From contig NZ_PGEZ01000002.1 in the NCBI RefSeq assembly GCF_002797495.1, positions 248,001 through 312,000 on the forward strand: a stretch of 64,000 nucleotides of DNA, read 5' to 3'. The notes beneath the pieces were generated by a model that saw only the letters and a list, made by a program, of their open reading frames with translations, did no database searches and had not been told where the DNA came from. Shown here piece after piece: positions 16,729-43,215 of this stretch. Made by a program: the position numbers and the translations under genes. Within the stretch, counting starts at the first letter, position 1. Each line of letters opens with the position of its first letter. The DNA is from Mumia flava. Its GTDB lineage: Bacteria > Actinomycetota > Actinomycetes > Propionibacteriales > Nocardioidaceae.

Positions 16729-16740
16729 GGTGAGTTCCTT

Positions 16741-16905
16741 CGCCACGCCTGCGAGGTGAGCTGTCGGGTTCGGGCGGAAGGTGCCCGGTCTCCCGGCGCG
16801 GGACGGGCCCGCACCAGGGAACTTCACCCCAGGAGCCACGGCGGCGCCGCGTCTCCGGAATTGGTTCCCCCACTCCCGCTCGTCGTTCCAGATCGGTTCG
16901 TCGGC
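16741..16905 (-). ncRNA. ydaO-yuaA (c-di-AMP) riboswitch
   Basis: On the minus strand, just upstream of the Rpf-like gene, the leader holds the landmarks of the ydaO motif in order: GTGGGGGAACC, then TGGGGTGAA after a GC-rich stem, and near the 3' end CCGAACCCGACAGCTCACC followed by TCGCAGGCG. The gene's ribosome site begins a few bases later. ydaO RNAs bind cyclic di-AMP and turn expression off; actinobacterial rpf genes are classic targets. The boundaries are approximate. I assign it by motif and context, not by a covariance search. Confidence 0.88.
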
Positions 16906-17080
16906 TCGGGGGCCGACCTTGCAGAGACGGTGCGTCCGGCCCGAGCGGGACTCGGCGTGGTCGAACGAACCTCCGCCAGGGTAAGCACCCGAATCAAGCC
17001 AAACCCGTCACATCGGACATCTCACGTGCCGCGTGTCGGTGCGGAGCACGCGGTCCGGCCGGCGTACGGCCCGGGTGGGC
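16906..17080. other. Promoter-side spacer upstream of the riboswitch
   Basis: This gene-free stretch lies between the riboswitch and the first repeat cluster. The minus strand has a T-rich segment around 16980-17005 that is the likely promoter zone for the Rpf-like transcript, but no clear -35/-10 pair can be picked. Nothing else is evident. Confidence 0.4.
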
Positions 17081-17189
17081 GGTGAGCTGGTTCCCACCCG
17101 GTCGCGGCGGAGGTGAGTGGGTTCCCACGCGGTCCCGGCGGAGGTGAGCTGGTTCCCACCCAACCCGGTCGCGTGGGAACCAGCTCACC
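17081..17189. repeat. Clustered 17-bp repeat, cluster 1 (three direct, one inverted)
   Basis: The 17-mer GGTGAGCTGGTTCCCAC occurs at 17081-17097, 17112-17128 (two mismatches, GGTGAGTGGGTTCCCAC) and 17143-17159, exactly 31 bp apart, and then inverted at 17173-17189 after a 13-nt loop. The third and the inverted copy form a perfect 17-bp hairpin. The 14-nt spacers between direct copies are themselves similar (xCGGTCxCGGCGGA). The cluster lies upstream of the DUF559 gene; a second cluster starts at that gene's stop codon. Confidence 0.95.
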
Positions 17190-17250
17190 GACGGCCGTAC
17201 GACTCGCCGCCCGCACCTGCGTTGGTCCACACGCTGCTGGTGTTGGGCGG

Positions 17251-17259
17251 TTGTCCACA
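17251..17259 (+). promoter_or_regulatory. Isolated DnaA-box-like nonamer
   Basis: TTGTCCACA is a perfect match to the actinobacterial DnaA box form. It sits 52 bp before the DUF559 start, with no partner boxes nearby, so it is not an origin. It could bind DnaA as a regulator or be chance. Confidence 0.35.
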
Positions 17260-17311
17260 GTCACGGCTCCGACGGTCCACACCGGATGCCGCCTGCGCCT
17301 GGAATGGACCC

Positions 17312-18256
17312 ATGCCAGCCCCGACGCCGGTCCCGCCCTGCCTCTCCGACGGCCCGTTCTCGTACCGACAGGCCCGCGAAGCCCGGCTCTCGAAGAAGGT
17401 CCTGCACGGCCAACGGTTCCGTCGGGTCTTCCCCGAGGTGTGGGTGCTGCGCGACCACGGGATGACCCTGCTGGACTGGATCACAGCTGCGTCGCTCGCC
17501 GTCCCCGATGACGCCCACCTGACCGACGCGGCGCGGATGGTCGCGCTCGGCTACGACGACCTGCCGTTCCGCCCGATCTGCTTCGTCCTGGAGCGTGACC
17601 ACCACGTCGACATCGACGGCATCCTCGTGCACCGGACACTCCGGCTGCCGCCGTGCGACGACATCGGAGTCACGCCTGCCGCGGCGTTCGTCGGGTGCTG
17701 TGCGCACGAGGCGATGATCGATCTAATCGCCCTCGGCGACTGGCTCGTGCGCCACGGCCACGCCTCCGTGCCCGAGATCGTCGAGCTCGCGACCGAGGAC
17801 GCCTGGCGGCCCGGGGCCGAACGCGCCCTCGAGGTCGTACGCCTGCTCGACCCGAGGGCCCGCTCACCCCGGGAATCGAAGCTGAGGGCGTGCCTCGTGG
17901 TGGCGGGCCTGCCGAAGCCCGAGTGCAACGTCGACCTCGTCGTCGACGACCGCAGACTCGGGTGCGTCGACCTCCTCTATCGCCGCTGGCTGCTCGTCGT
18001 CGAGTACGAGGGACGTCAGCACGCCGAGTCGCCGGAGCAGTTCGGCACGGACATCAGTCGGTACGAGGGGTTCCGCGACCACCACGTGGCGTACGTCCAG
18101 ATCACGAATGCGCGGTTCTCGCAGCCGCGAGCGACCGTCCTGCGGGTCTACCGGGCCCTCGTCGAGCGCGGGTACGACGGGCCGCGGCCGAAGTTCGGGG
18201 CACGGTGGCGCAACCTCTTCGCCCCGATCCCGGGTGCGCACTACCGCCGGCGGTGA
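17312..18256 (+). CDS. DUF559-type PD-(D/E)XK nuclease-like protein, repeat-flanked
   Basis: The 314-residue protein has an N-terminal region (YRQAREARLSKKVLHGQRFRRVFPEVWV) resembling the AbiEi-like winged-helix module often found in front of DUF559, and a C-terminal Vsr/PD-(D/E)XK-like domain: RESKLR with Glu188, VDLLY with Asp220 and VVEYEGRQH with Glu231, a complete candidate catalytic set. DUF559 proteins occur in many copies in Nocardioides-like genomes and are unassigned. The ATG at 17312 is the first family-consistent start. Its TGA stop (18254-18256) lies inside the first 17-mer of repeat cluster 2, and cluster 1 lies upstream, so the gene is framed by the repeat. Endonuclease activity is inferred from motifs only. 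Confidence 0.8.
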   Translation: MPAPTPVPPCLSDGPFSYRQAREARLSKKVLHGQRFRRVFPEVWVLRDHGMTLLDWITAASLAVPDDAHLTDAARMVALGYDDLPFRPICFVLERDHHVDIDGILVHRTLRLPPCDDIGVTPAAAFVGCCAHEAMIDLIALGDWLVRHGHASVPEIVELATEDAWRPGAERALEVVRLLDPRARSPRESKLRACLVVAGLPKPECNVDLVVDDRRLGCVDLLYRRWLLVVEYEGRQHAESPEQFGTDISRYEGFRDHHVAYVQITNARFSQPRATVLRVYRALVERGYDGPRPKFGARWRNLFAPIPGAHYRRR

Positions 18257-18329
18257 GCTGGTTCCCACGCGACCCGGCCGGCGGTGAGCTGGTTCCCACG
18301 CGACGTCACGTCGTGGGAACCAGCTCACC
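18252..18329. repeat. Clustered 17-bp repeat, cluster 2 (two direct, one inverted)
   Basis: GGTGAGCTGGTTCCCAC at 18252-18268 and 18283-18299 (31 bp apart) is followed after a 13-nt loop by the inverted copy at 18313-18329. The loop is itself partly self-complementary (GACG/CGTC). The TGA in the first copy is the stop codon of the DUF559 gene. The last bases are 26 bp from the terC stop on the other strand, so the hairpin could also terminate both genes. Confidence 0.95.
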
Positions 18330-18355
18330 GCCCGGGCGGCACAGCGCCTGCGCGG

Positions 18356-19345
18356 TCAGCCCAGGGTCTGGCGCCGGTCCTCGTCGCGCGTCTTCCACAG
18401 GCTGGCGACCGCGGTGATGCCGAGGACGACGATGATGACCGCGAGACTGAGCAGGGTCGGGACCTCGGGCACGTCCACGTGCTCGCCGCCGTTGATGAAC
18501 GGCAGCTCGTTCGTGTGCAGCGCGTGCAGGACCAGCTTGACCCCGATGAACGCCAGGATGATCGCGAGCCCGATCGACAGGTACACGAGGCGCTGGAGCA
18601 GCCCGCCGAGCAGGAAGTACAGCTGCCGCAGGCCCATCAGCGCGAAGATGTTCGCGGTCAGGACGAGGTACGGCTCCTGGGTGATGCCGTAGATCGCCGG
18701 GATCGAGTCCAGCGCGAACAGCAGGTCGGTCGACCCGAGAGCGAGGATGACGAGGAACATCGGCGTCAGGAAGCGCTTCCCGTCGATGTTCACCAGCATC
18801 TTCATGCCGTGGTACTCCTCGGTGACGGCGAAGTGCCGCTCCGCGAACCGCACCACGGCGTTGTCGCCGGCATCGTCCTCGTCATGAGCCCGGTAGCTCT
18901 TCACCAGGCCGTAGGCCGTGTAGACCAGGAACAGCCCGAAGATGTAGAAGATCCAGCTGAACTGGTTGATCGCGGCCGCCCCGAGCGCGATGAAGATCCC
19001 GCGGAAGATCAGCGCCAGGATGATGCCGATCATCAAGGCTTCCTGCTGATACACCCTTGGCACCTTGAAGCTCGCCATGATGATGATGAAGATGAACAGG
19101 TTGTCGACCGACAGGCTGTACTCGGTCAGCCAGCCGGTGAAGAACTCGAGGCCGTACTGGCCGCCGTGGAAGGACGACACCCAGATCCCGAACGCCACCG
19201 CGAGGCCGATGTAGACCGAGAGCGCGAGCCCGGCCTCCTTCATCGACGGCTCGTGCGGGCGGCGGGCGATGATGATCACGTCGAAGAGCAGGACGGCGAC
19301 GGTCACGCCGATCGTGATCCACCACTCCAGCGGTGTGACGTTCAT
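18356..19345 (-). CDS. terC: TerC-family membrane protein (manganese exporter-like)
   Basis: The 329-residue protein is a polytopic TerC/Alx-type membrane protein. The paired family motifs are visible: the first-half FTGWLTEYSLSVDNLFIFI with acidic residues in a helix, and the second-half STDLLFALDSIPAIYGIT, both typical metal-binding membrane segments. Members export Mn2+ or protect metalated exoenzymes. The ATG at 19345 has CGGAGGAAC upstream. A yybP-ykoY manganese riboswitch precedes it, which supports a manganese-linked role. The gene is convergent with the DUF559 gene and repeat cluster 2. Confidence 0.94.
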   Translation of the reverse strand: MNVTPLEWWITIGVTVAVLLFDVIIIARRPHEPSMKEAGLALSVYIGLAVAFGIWVSSFHGGQYGLEFFTGWLTEYSLSVDNLFIFIIIMASFKVPRVYQQEALMIGIILALIFRGIFIALGAAAINQFSWIFYIFGLFLVYTAYGLVKSYRAHDEDDAGDNAVVRFAERHFAVTEEYHGMKMLVNIDGKRFLTPMFLVILALGSTDLLFALDSIPAIYGITQEPYLVLTANIFALMGLRQLYFLLGGLLQRLVYLSIGLAIILAFIGVKLVLHALHTNELPFINGGEHVDVPEVPTLLSLAVIIVVLGITAVASLWKTRDEDRRQTLG

Positions 19346-27156: not shown

Positions 27157-28047
27157 ATGGCGACCACCACCTTCGACCGGCCCCCGGCGACCCTGCCGCT
27201 CTACCTGCGCGCCGCCCTGCCCGCGCTCCCCGTCGTCGGCGGCCTGCCCGGCGTGAAGCATGCGAGCGGCTCCGTCCCCGACCTCACCCTGCGCCGCGCC
27301 GGCATCACCACGGACCTCGACCACCTCGCGGCGTACGGCGACGTGTGCGGGTTCGCGCTGCGCGGCACCCTTCCGGCGACCTATCCCCACATGGCGGCGT
27401 TCGGCCTCCAGATGGCGCTCATGGTCGACACGGCGTTCCCGTTCGCGCCGATGGGGCTGGTCCACCTCCGCAACACCATCGTGCAGCACCGTCCGATCGG
27501 CGTCGGTGAGCGCTACGACGTCGAGGTCCGGGCCGAGGACCTGCGCGACCACCCGAAGGGCCGCCTGATCGACCTGGTCACCACGGCCACCGTCGGGGAC
27601 GAGGTCGTCTGGGACGAGACCATGACACTGTTCCGGCGCGGCGGGCGGGGCGGCGCCGAGTCCAGCCCCGCGCCCCTGACCGACGTGGCCGCACCGGTCG
27701 GCGCGGCCCGCTGGCGGCTGCCCGCGGACCTCGGACGGCGGTACGGCGCGGTCTCCGGCGACCGCAACCCGATCCACCTGTCGAAGCTCAGTGCGAAGGC
27801 GTTCGGGTTCCCCCGCCAGATCGCGCACGGGATGTGGAGCCAGGCCCGGGCGCTCGCAGCGGTGGAGAACCGTCTCGGCGACACGTTCCGGGTCGACGCG
27901 GAGTTCCGCAAGCCGATCCTGCTGCCGACGACGGTGAGCTTCGGGACCCGCGAGGACGGCGACGGGCTGCTGCTCGGGATCACCGGGGCCCCGAAGGACG
28001 ACCGGCCGGGCCGCGAGCACCTGGTCGCGCGGGTGACCCACGCCTGA
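27157..28047 (+). CDS. MaoC-family (R)-3-hydroxyacyl thioester dehydratase (HtdX-type)
   Basis: The 296-residue protein is a double hot-dog-fold dehydratase. The C-terminal hot-dog carries the hydratase-2 signature SGDRNPIHLS with Asp202 and His207, followed by FGFPRQIAHGMWS; the N-terminal hot-dog is degenerate. It would interconvert 3-hydroxyacyl and trans-2-enoyl thioesters after FabG4. A GTG at 27151 overlaps the fabG4 stop as GTGA and could be the true start two codons earlier; I list the ATG at 27157 because it gives the plainer MATTT start. The match to the Rv0242c-Rv0241c pair is strong. Confidence 0.88.
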   Translation: MATTTFDRPPATLPLYLRAALPALPVVGGLPGVKHASGSVPDLTLRRAGITTDLDHLAAYGDVCGFALRGTLPATYPHMAAFGLQMALMVDTAFPFAPMGLVHLRNTIVQHRPIGVGERYDVEVRAEDLRDHPKGRLIDLVTTATVGDEVVWDETMTLFRRGGRGGAESSPAPLTDVAAPVGAARWRLPADLGRRYGAVSGDRNPIHLSKLSAKAFGFPRQIAHGMWSQARALAAVENRLGDTFRVDAEFRKPILLPTTVSFGTREDGDGLLLGITGAPKDDRPGREHLVARVTHA

Positions 28048-28102
28048 GGCGGGGTGCGGGGTCCGGCCACGCCCGCCGGCCGGAGGTCCTGGTCGCGCTC
28101 GG

Positions 28103-28966
28103 TCACCCGACCGGGCGGATCAGCCCCTCCTGGGCCGTGGACGCGACCAGCGTCCCGTCCTCGGCGTACAGGTTGGCGGTGGTGAAGCCCCGCGCTCCGG
28201 TCGCCGACGGGGAGCGCTGGTCGTACAGCAGCCACTGGTCGGCCCGGATCGGTCGGTGGAACCAGATCGCGTGGTCCAGCGACGCCGGCTGCACGTCCGG
28301 TGACGCCACCGTCAGCCCGTGCGGCACGAGCGAGACACCGAGCAGACTGAGATCCGACAGGTAGGTCAGGAGCGCGGCGTTCAGGACCGGGTCCGGGCCG
28401 AGCTCGCCGGCCGCACGGAACCACAGCCGCTGCAGACCCGGCACCGCCTCCTCGGACGGGTCGCCGTCGAAGCGGGTCCCGCCGACGTAGCGGACGTCGA
28501 GCGCCGACCACTCGCGGCTCCAGTGCTCGGCGGCCTGCCGGCTGAGCCCCGACAGCACCTGCGGCATCGTGGGGCTGTCGTCCGGCGACGGCACCGGAGG
28601 CATCCGGTCCTGGTGCTCGTAGCCCTTCTCGTAGCGGTGGAAGGACGCGGTCAGGTAGAAGATCACCCGCCCGTGCTGGCGGGCCGAGACCCGCCGCGTC
28701 GAGAACGAGCCTCCGTCGCGGATCCGCTCGACGTCGTAGACGATCGGGACGCTCGGGTCGCCGCCGAGAAGGAAGTACATGTGCGCCGAGTGCACCAGGC
28801 GCTCCGGCGCCACCGAGCGGGCCGCGGCCACGAGCGCCTGCGCTGCGACCTGGCCGCCGAACACGCGCTTGACGCCGCTCGCCGCGGGTTGCGATCCCCG
28901 ATAGAGGTCCTCCTCGAGCCTCTCGAGATCGAGCAGGGCGACGAGGTCAGCGATCGTGTTCGGCAC
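28103..28966 (-). CDS. tesB: Acyl-CoA thioesterase II (TesB family)
   Basis: The 287-residue protein has the two hot-dog repeats of TesB. Typical segments are FGGQVAAQALVAAARSV, YFLLGGDPSVPIVYDVERIRDGGSF, LDHAIWFHRPIRADQWLLYD with the catalytic Asp region, and AQEGLIR with the catalytic Gln at the C-terminus. It releases free fatty acids from acyl-CoA. The GTG at 28966 lies six bases after a GACGAT -10-like box, so the mRNA may be leaderless. It is convergent with the MaoC gene, extending the acyl-CoA theme. Confidence 0.92.
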   Translation of the reverse strand: MPNTIADLVALLDLERLEEDLYRGSQPAASGVKRVFGGQVAAQALVAAARSVAPERLVHSAHMYFLLGGDPSVPIVYDVERIRDGGSFSTRRVSARQHGRVIFYLTASFHRYEKGYEHQDRMPPVPSPDDSPTMPQVLSGLSRQAAEHWSREWSALDVRYVGGTRFDGDPSEEAVPGLQRLWFRAAGELGPDPVLNAALLTYLSDLSLLGVSLVPHGLTVASPDVQPASLDHAIWFHRPIRADQWLLYDQRSPSATGARGFTTANLYAEDGTLVASTAQEGLIRPVG

Positions 28967-43053: not shown

Positions 43054-43215
43054 GGTGAGCTGGTTCCCACGCACGGGTGTTTGGTCGACAACGGCGGTGA
43101 GCGGGTTCCCACACACGGGTGTTCCGTGGACGACGGCGGTGAGCTGGTTCCCACGCGCGCGTGTTCCGTGGGAACCAGCTCACCGACGCCGGACCCCGGT
43201 GGGAACCAGCTCACC
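43054..43215. repeat. Clustered 17-bp repeat, cluster 3 (three direct, two inverted)
   Basis: GGTGAGCTGGTTCCCAC or a one-base variant lies at 43054-43070, 43096-43112 and 43138-43154, spaced exactly 42 bp, then inverted at 43168-43184 after a 13-nt loop and again at 43199-43215, 31 bp further. The 25-nt spacers between direct copies are alike (xCACGGGTGTTxxGTxGACxACGGC). It fills the gap between the large membrane protein gene and the GNAT gene, both minus strand. Flanks 42912-43053 and 43216-43264 show nothing else. Confidence 0.95.

Follow-up and report, generated by a model that had tools for sequence, protein, structure and literature searches.

Why should a gene for a nuclease-like protein carry clusters of one palindromic repeat at both of its ends? 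The question is raised by a 64-kb stretch of the Mumia flava genome (the window), in which the gene for the protein P0001 lies between two arrays of a 17-bp site. REPINs and their RAYT enzymes are the textbook case of tiny repeats that live in long-term partnership with a domesticated mobility enzyme. On our analysis the best reading of the Mumia locus is that it probably holds an enzyme-repeat pair of this RAYT/REPIN-like sort, set up around an unrelated nuclease of the homing-endonuclease fold. An earlier note on this DNA had proposed a repeat-linked nuclease, or a repeat that may be the nuclease's recognition site, and the proposal is supported: the repeat brackets this particular gene, gene and repeats are present or absent together, and many homologues carry motifs of their own.

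The nuclease gene and its flanking arrays

The gene and the sites around it are listed in Table 1. The arrangement described earlier is largely confirmed: downstream, two direct copies 31 bp apart are followed by an inverted one, and the first of them supplies the stop codon of the gene (TGA, 18254-18256); upstream, three direct copies at 31 bp precede one inverted copy, but the middle of these (17112) is imperfect, reading GGTGAGTGGGTTCCCAC with two mismatches to the 17-mer. The 13-nt gap ahead of the inverted copy is present in both clusters as well. The upstream array lies between divergent genes, 122 bp short of the start codon at its near end. In the window the inverted arms pair as perfect 17-bp stems.

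With up to three mismatches allowed, the window contains 13 copies of the 17-mer, one of them isolated (25116), versus 0.19 expected after shuffling, with no shuffle giving more than 2. In the complete genome (G000, 4.40 Mb) the 17-mer occurs 31 times exactly and 49 times with no more than two mismatches, and a reversed-pattern control 0 times; at up to three mismatches the count is 79 versus 18. The shuffles for the window and the reversed pattern for the genome rule out chance repeats.

Table 1. Positions of the nuclease gene and of the repeat sites in the window
Feature	Position	Strand	Remarks
P0001 gene	17312..18256	+	314 aa; AbiEi-like half and Vsr/I-Bth0305I-fold nuclease half (predicted fold)
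Upstream array, four 17-bp sites	17081..17189	+++-	spacing 31, 31, 30
Upstream site starts	17081, 17112, 17143, 17173	+, +, +, -	
Upstream convergent pair, putative dimer site	17143..17189		47 bp, 13-bp gap
Downstream array, three sites	18252..18329	++-	spacing 31, 30
Downstream site starts	18252, 18283, 18313	+, +, -	
Downstream convergent pair	18283..18329		47 bp, 13-bp gap
Dispersed third cluster, five sites	43054..43215	+++--	spacing 42, 42, 30, 31

The locus in other Mumia species

Six Mumia genomes were compared, that of M. flava and those of five congeners (G001-G005). Orthologues 64-68 percent identical to P0001 are found in G001, G003, G004, and G005, while the best match in G002 is 36 percent identical. 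In five of five gene-bearing species, M. flava included, it is flanked by the same two genes, a Transglycosylas-domain (PF06737, rpf-like) gene and a TerC (PF03741) gene, and in all five the C-terminal RRR-stop is encoded by a site that has an inverted partner further on (one mismatch in the G001 partner). The upstream pair is found in four of four readable species, M. flava again included, with a mismatched arm in some. The earlier note had raised the prospect of orthologues that lack the flanking repeats; instead, the downstream pair accompanies the gene in 4/4 congeners and the upstream pair in 3/3 with a readable flank. The corresponding flank of G004 consists of homopolymer stretches (G and C) and N, an apparent assembly failure at the place where the repeat is expected.

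Gene and repeats are present or absent together. In G002, 222 bp replace window positions 16885-18379, and the gene and both arrays are gone. Matches to the pattern GGTGAGNNNGNTCCCAC number 51, 51, 28, 16, and 10 in the five gene-bearing genomes and 2 in G002, with 0-3 each in 52 genomes of other genera; the correlation between gene and repeat number is thin by itself, because only one genome of the genus is without the gene.

We note that a c-di-AMP (ydaO/yuaA) riboswitch (window 16732-16895, minus strand) precedes the Transglycosylas-domain gene, which lies to the left of the nuclease gene.

Homologous genes with motifs of their own

In the M. flava genome the 17-mer stands beside 0/4 Pfam DUF559 matches, which rules out a tie of this sequence to DUF559 genes generally. 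The enrichment that the earlier note had envisaged is thus absent for the 17-mer itself, but five of six other DUF559-type genes carry a different flanking motif of their own, namely three of the four Pfam matches and two paralogues that Pfam misses. At C1:1402575 the paralogue lies between copies of GTGACGGAT-N13-ATCCGTCAC. Of the five places where this motif occurs in the genome, two are at the gene itself, and the five congeners have none. The paralogues at C1:1218777 and C1:2926983 carry palindromes of the GATTTGACGC and GATTTGTCGA types, respectively; palindromes of these types occur at 3 places in G000, 7 in G005, 8 in G003, 1 in G001, and 0 in G004 and G002, and they sit on both sides of a G003 homologue.

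For a systematic comparison, a flank score was taken as the best ungapped motif common to the 450 nt upstream and the 309 nt downstream of each homologue. Within M. flava, C1:73022 and C2:895291 have flank-to-flank motifs scoring 26 and 32, and the short DUF559 match C2:451676 has no motif of its own between its flanks (score 10). Scores of at least 18 were reached by 35/57 homologues from relatives, by 15/21 newly found named records (Aeromicrobium, Nocardioides, Geodermatophilus, Microbacterium, and others) and by 19/27 homologues sampled over the class. Together these make 69/105, versus 8/1,256 controls (cross-paired flanks 3/456 and 4/270; random intervals of the same loci 1/260 and 0/270); the three sets may overlap in species, relatives are not independent, and the cross-paired controls include related genes. 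At a threshold of 14 the sets give 43, 19, and 22, or 84/105, versus 54/1,256. The relatives set comprises 60 gene models minus three pieces of a broken homologue (L109). Two genes that run off their records (L218 and L252) were left out of the scoring, which included one with an unclear end (L211) and one with an in-frame stop (L215); some other homologues have an internal stop.

The family has a match in 68/118 sampled genomes of the class. Four genomes of one genus (G060, G098, G111, and G124; g36) have 6-12 family matches each, and the other genomes listed have at most 6. The gene at C2:895291 (L033) is a distant DUF559 gene with a different N-terminus, yet its flank motif is palindromic and its own; the pairing may therefore reach beyond the P0001 family.

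Dispersal and concerted change of the sites

Away from the gene, the sites are dispersed through the Mumia genomes at largely lineage-specific positions. The fetched set comprises 58 clusters with 149 copies from the six genomes, 7 of the clusters being single sites; G001 contributes 12 clusters with 33 copies by the core scan, as against 51 pattern matches, and two degenerate G000 places (C1:188601 and C1:1438381) failed the core scan. One query used for mapping relatives held 3401/4141 bases, and matches were placed via the G000 rows. Among the 13 fetched G000 clusters, the two at the gene are the sole ones matched on both sides by a fetched congener cluster; none of the 10 multi-copy clusters away from it is so matched, and one of them has a one-sided match. 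For the cluster at 43 kb of the window, the orthologous place is site-free in 5/5 congeners. Six further G000 clusters likewise have no sites in the fetchable orthologous flanks, with a two-sided match for clusters 3 and 6 and a one-sided match for four. The converse is seen for a G004 pair between convergent genes, which is missing at window 27900-28230. Some clusters do occupy common positions among G001, G003, G004, and G005.

One M. flava cluster (C1:1161101-1161322; L122, 9602-9823) consists of six sites at a constant distance of exactly 41 bp, the five spacers being identical, which indicates recent local expansion. Four congeners (L164, L169, L183, and L193) each have one core match at the same conserved place in coding sequence, and this was taken to be a coding coincidence. 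The G005 counterpart of the G000 cluster near C1:388k (L245, about 2370-2620) holds a paralogue-type palindrome, CCCGATTTGGCGGG..., so that one intergenic spot is occupied by another palindrome family.

The repeat also diverges in concert within a genome. The consensus over core-scan copies is GCGGTGAG-N3-G-N-TCCCAC, in which position 11 is T in 51/52 G000 copies and G in 94/97 congener copies. Convergent spacing is 30 bp in G000 (14/14), G003 (6/6), and G004 (14/14), 31 bp in G001 (13/13) and G005 (6/7), and 29 bp in the sole G002 pair. On the protein side, P0001 has diverged further, in most segments, than the four congener orthologues have from one another. Its residues 1-50 (window 17312-17461) share 52-54 percent identity with the congeners, less than any other segment in its own lineage, versus 56-86 percent among the congeners themselves. 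This segment is a candidate reader of the variable bases of the repeat.

Geometry of the sites

Neighbouring copies in the fetched set lie 29-32 bp apart in 72 pairs and 40-42 bp apart in 14. Rarer spacings of 51, 53, 61, 62, and 92 bp occur once each; the last three are composites that enclose decayed copies. Of the 51 multi-copy clusters, 50 contain a convergent pair at 29-32 bp. Eleven spacings outside the 29-32 class cluster beyond chance (0/100,000 simulations), these having been picked by hand with the composites omitted, from copies that are not independent within one cluster.

The geometry is fixed even where the sequence changes. At non-Mumia loci in GTDB, chiefly of Aeromicrobium, GGTGA is kept and the inner bases differ; direct spacing is 31 bp in 9/23 and 40-41 bp in 5/23 neighbour pairs, and the outer length of convergent pairs is 46-47 bp in 8/13 cases, matching the 46-48 bp of Mumia. 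Constant geometry with changing sequence suggests that a protein sets the spacing, on one face of double-stranded DNA.

The arms themselves show no sign of covariation in Mumia: the five variable central bases are identical in both arms of 13/55 pairs, versus 13.4 expected for random arms of the same genome. Together with the phased spacing, this favours double-stranded sites in phase over a hairpin, and an RNA or DNA hairpin as the selected form is not supported for the Mumia GGTGAG family.

The protein

P0001 is predicted to consist of two halves, an AbiEi-like half with an antitoxin fold (residues about 3-180) and a nuclease half with the Vsr/I-Bth0305I fold (residues about 185-288), both assigned among one list of compared fold families. 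In the nuclease half E188, D220, and H237 are invariant and D247 is near-invariant; they are residues of active-site type, and by order along the sequence they are candidates for the E, D, xH, and D of the EDxHD homing endonucleases. P0001 matches no NCBIfam or PADLOC model, nor any Pfam nuclease model. Among 25 family members, Pfam finds MTES_1575 in 6 and DUF559 in 7, and neither in P0001 itself; given these homologues and the Vsr-like predicted fold, the DUF559 label of the earlier note is right in substance. The start position is the same in P0001 and its orthologues, and the ratio of nonsynonymous to synonymous substitution (dN/dS) of the gene is 0.15-0.41.

No AbiEii toxin (nucleotidyltransferase) adjoins the gene, both neighbours belonging to other families, and no methylase lies in its immediate neighbourhood. 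The best other match to P0001 in its own genome is 55 percent identical, with no second copy above that. Carriage by plasmids or phages was set aside, two weak plasmid records and one partial phage match being all that was found.

Proposed mechanism and alternatives

For the enzyme-repeat pair that we favour, we infer cognate binding, dimerisation, cutting, and copying, with cutting as the cause of the spread. The AbiEi-like half would most likely grip the double-stranded site GCGGTGAG-N5-TCCCAC, and two protomers would settle on a convergent pair, whose arm starts are 30-31 bp (three helical turns) apart. The Vsr/I-Bth0305I-fold nuclease halves may then meet over the 13-14-bp gap. A dimer on the convergent pair would fit with I-Bth0305I, which is reported to dimerise on a target almost 60 bp long (PMC3943268). 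A nick or break in the gap might lead cellular repair to copy or amplify the site and to seed pairs elsewhere. Solo pairs would thus spread, mostly just behind genes, while the gene itself would stay and be inherited vertically. The homologues appear to follow the same course, each with its own sequence.

The chief alternative, which we consider unlikely, is a regulator with its regulon: P0001 would be an AbiEi-like autorepressor, the pairs would be operators set in helical phase so that it binds cooperatively, and the nuclease half would be an accessory. AbiEi reportedly binds inverted repeats at its own promoter, and such a role would suit the AbiEi antitoxin fold over residues 3-180, an upstream array that stops short of the start codon, the phased spacing, and the clusters kept in place among G001, G003, G004, and G005. 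The positions of the sites speak against it. With genes called by a home-made GC-frame method, 36/51 multi-copy clusters lie no more than 60 bp behind a called stop codon, and the contexts of the 58 clusters are mixed (17 convergent, 22 co-directional, 11 divergent, and 8 apparently inside genes). A site at the stop codon itself, as in 5/5 species, is unsuited to an operator, and the 10 multi-copy M. flava clusters away from the gene are without a two-sided counterpart in the fetched congener clusters. The invariant nuclease residues also tell against an accessory role.

Transcription terminators or RNA hairpins, locally duplicated and only incidentally linked to the nuclease, are improbable. 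The perfect stems in the window and the preference for gene 3' ends are what terminators would show, but the variable pentamers of the arms agree no more often than expected, direct copies are phased as well as inverted ones, the motifs are gene-specific and stand on both sides of homologues, and the upstream array lies between divergent genes. Least probable is that the gene and its bracketing pairs form one mobile element, homing-type or IS-like (insertion sequence), with solo pairs as remnants, since its nuclease fold and its joint absence with both arrays in G002 are outweighed by the same neighbours in 5/5 species, the lack of a second gene copy above 55 percent identity, the full inverted pair, not one terminal repeat, in each readable orthologue flank, and the scarcity of carriers.

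Several observations weigh against an enzyme-repeat pair. The support for binding, cutting, and copying comes from sequence and predicted fold. Foldseek alone gives nothing for P0001 at E ≤0.001; a mitoribosomal chain heads its list (E 0.0096), with I-Bth0305I at E 0.24 (probability 0.99). Strong common flank motifs are absent from 36/105 homologues. Inspection of the rpf-terC site, three dispersed clusters, and one G004 pair resolved neither a target-site duplication nor a clean end of insertion, so that "insertion" rests on presence and absence. The phasing period is fixed to about 10-11 bp, and 10.5 bp is not singled out. In the GATTTGACGC family, arm complementarity is in excess in G003 (P 0.011) and not in G005, which restricts the case against a hairpin to the Mumia GGTGAG family, and many palindromes across the class are long and near-perfect. 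Finally, of the 14 multi-copy clusters in G004, 5 (including one at the gene) occupy the same place in a congener, which indicates slow turnover.

The wider claim, which we advance tentatively as a little short of an even prospect, is that across Actinomycetes nucleases of the homing-endonuclease fold spread their own long double-stranded recognition sites and not their gene. Many would have a private paired site of about 30-70 bp, enzyme and sites would change in concert within a genome, and the whole would form a second, independent enzyme-repeat symbiosis beside RAYT/REPIN. If true, a non-homologous system has the RAYT/REPIN life history, and such pacts arose more than once. It would also be a natural library of long-site nucleases, each with its target written next to its gene. 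Should the sites indeed be targets, the specificity could be read from the flanks of each gene, a help to nuclease and DNA-binding engineering. The system lends itself to straightforward assays of binding to and cutting of double-stranded DNA, offers a function that can be tested for a large unannotated group of DUF559/AbiEi-like proteins, and may account for one class of intergenic palindromes.

Comparison with known systems

Unlike an IS element, the P0001 gene is not multi-copy, and unlike AbiE toxin-antitoxin systems it encodes a nuclease half and adjoins no AbiEii toxin. P0001 shares the predicted PD-(D/E)XK/Vsr fold of the Vsr/DUF559 superfamily, in which MTES_1575 is described as a Vsr-type domain that forms part of a larger protein (PMC3710099). 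It differs from the Vsr/DUF559/REase_MTES_1575 nucleases in its AbiEi-like fusion, its linked palindromes, and the lack of a methylase among its immediate neighbours. With the EDxHD homing endonucleases, as represented by I-Bth0305I, it has in common a Vsr-like catalytic domain fold (predicted); unlike I-Bth0305I, it is encoded outside any intron or intein, with sites on both sides of the gene, an AbiEi-like N-terminal half, and dispersed solo sites. Among the matches listed from open PMC full text, no paper connects palindromic repeats with nucleases of the DUF559/MTES_1575 or AbiEi type.

The closest parallel in way of life is RAYT/REPIN. In that system a vertically inherited single-copy gene goes with dispersed inverted pairs that are more numerous where the gene is present (PMC8049555, PMC8266576), and RAYT genes are flanked by their own repeats, with repeat-specific enzymes where several families coexist (PMC8049555, PMC8266576, PMC3733652). 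The P0001 gene is likewise single-copy, vertical, and repeat-flanked, its short inverted pairs are dispersed between genes, and repeat number follows its presence, as judged from one gene-less genome. The HuH/Y1 transposase model PF01797 has no match at E 0.001 in 6/6 Mumia genomes (in controls, a match in 5/14 known genomes), which rules out a canonical RAYT. No GTAG tetranucleotide is found on the repeat consensus or at the flanking positions shown. GTAG repeats are named for Proteobacteria, Cyanobacteria, Chloroflexi, and PVC in PMC3733652, where the word Actinobacteria is absent. Lacking the Y1 transposase and the GTAG tag, the Mumia system would work like a REPtron but is not one. The likeness to REP elements drawn in the earlier note holds for the RAYT-like pairing of enzyme and repeats but probably not, in the Mumia family, for hairpin behaviour: random arms and phased spacing point to double-stranded sites. 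The gene-repeat system appears to be categorically new as a system, with the reserve that a regulatory role would make it no more than a variant of something already known.
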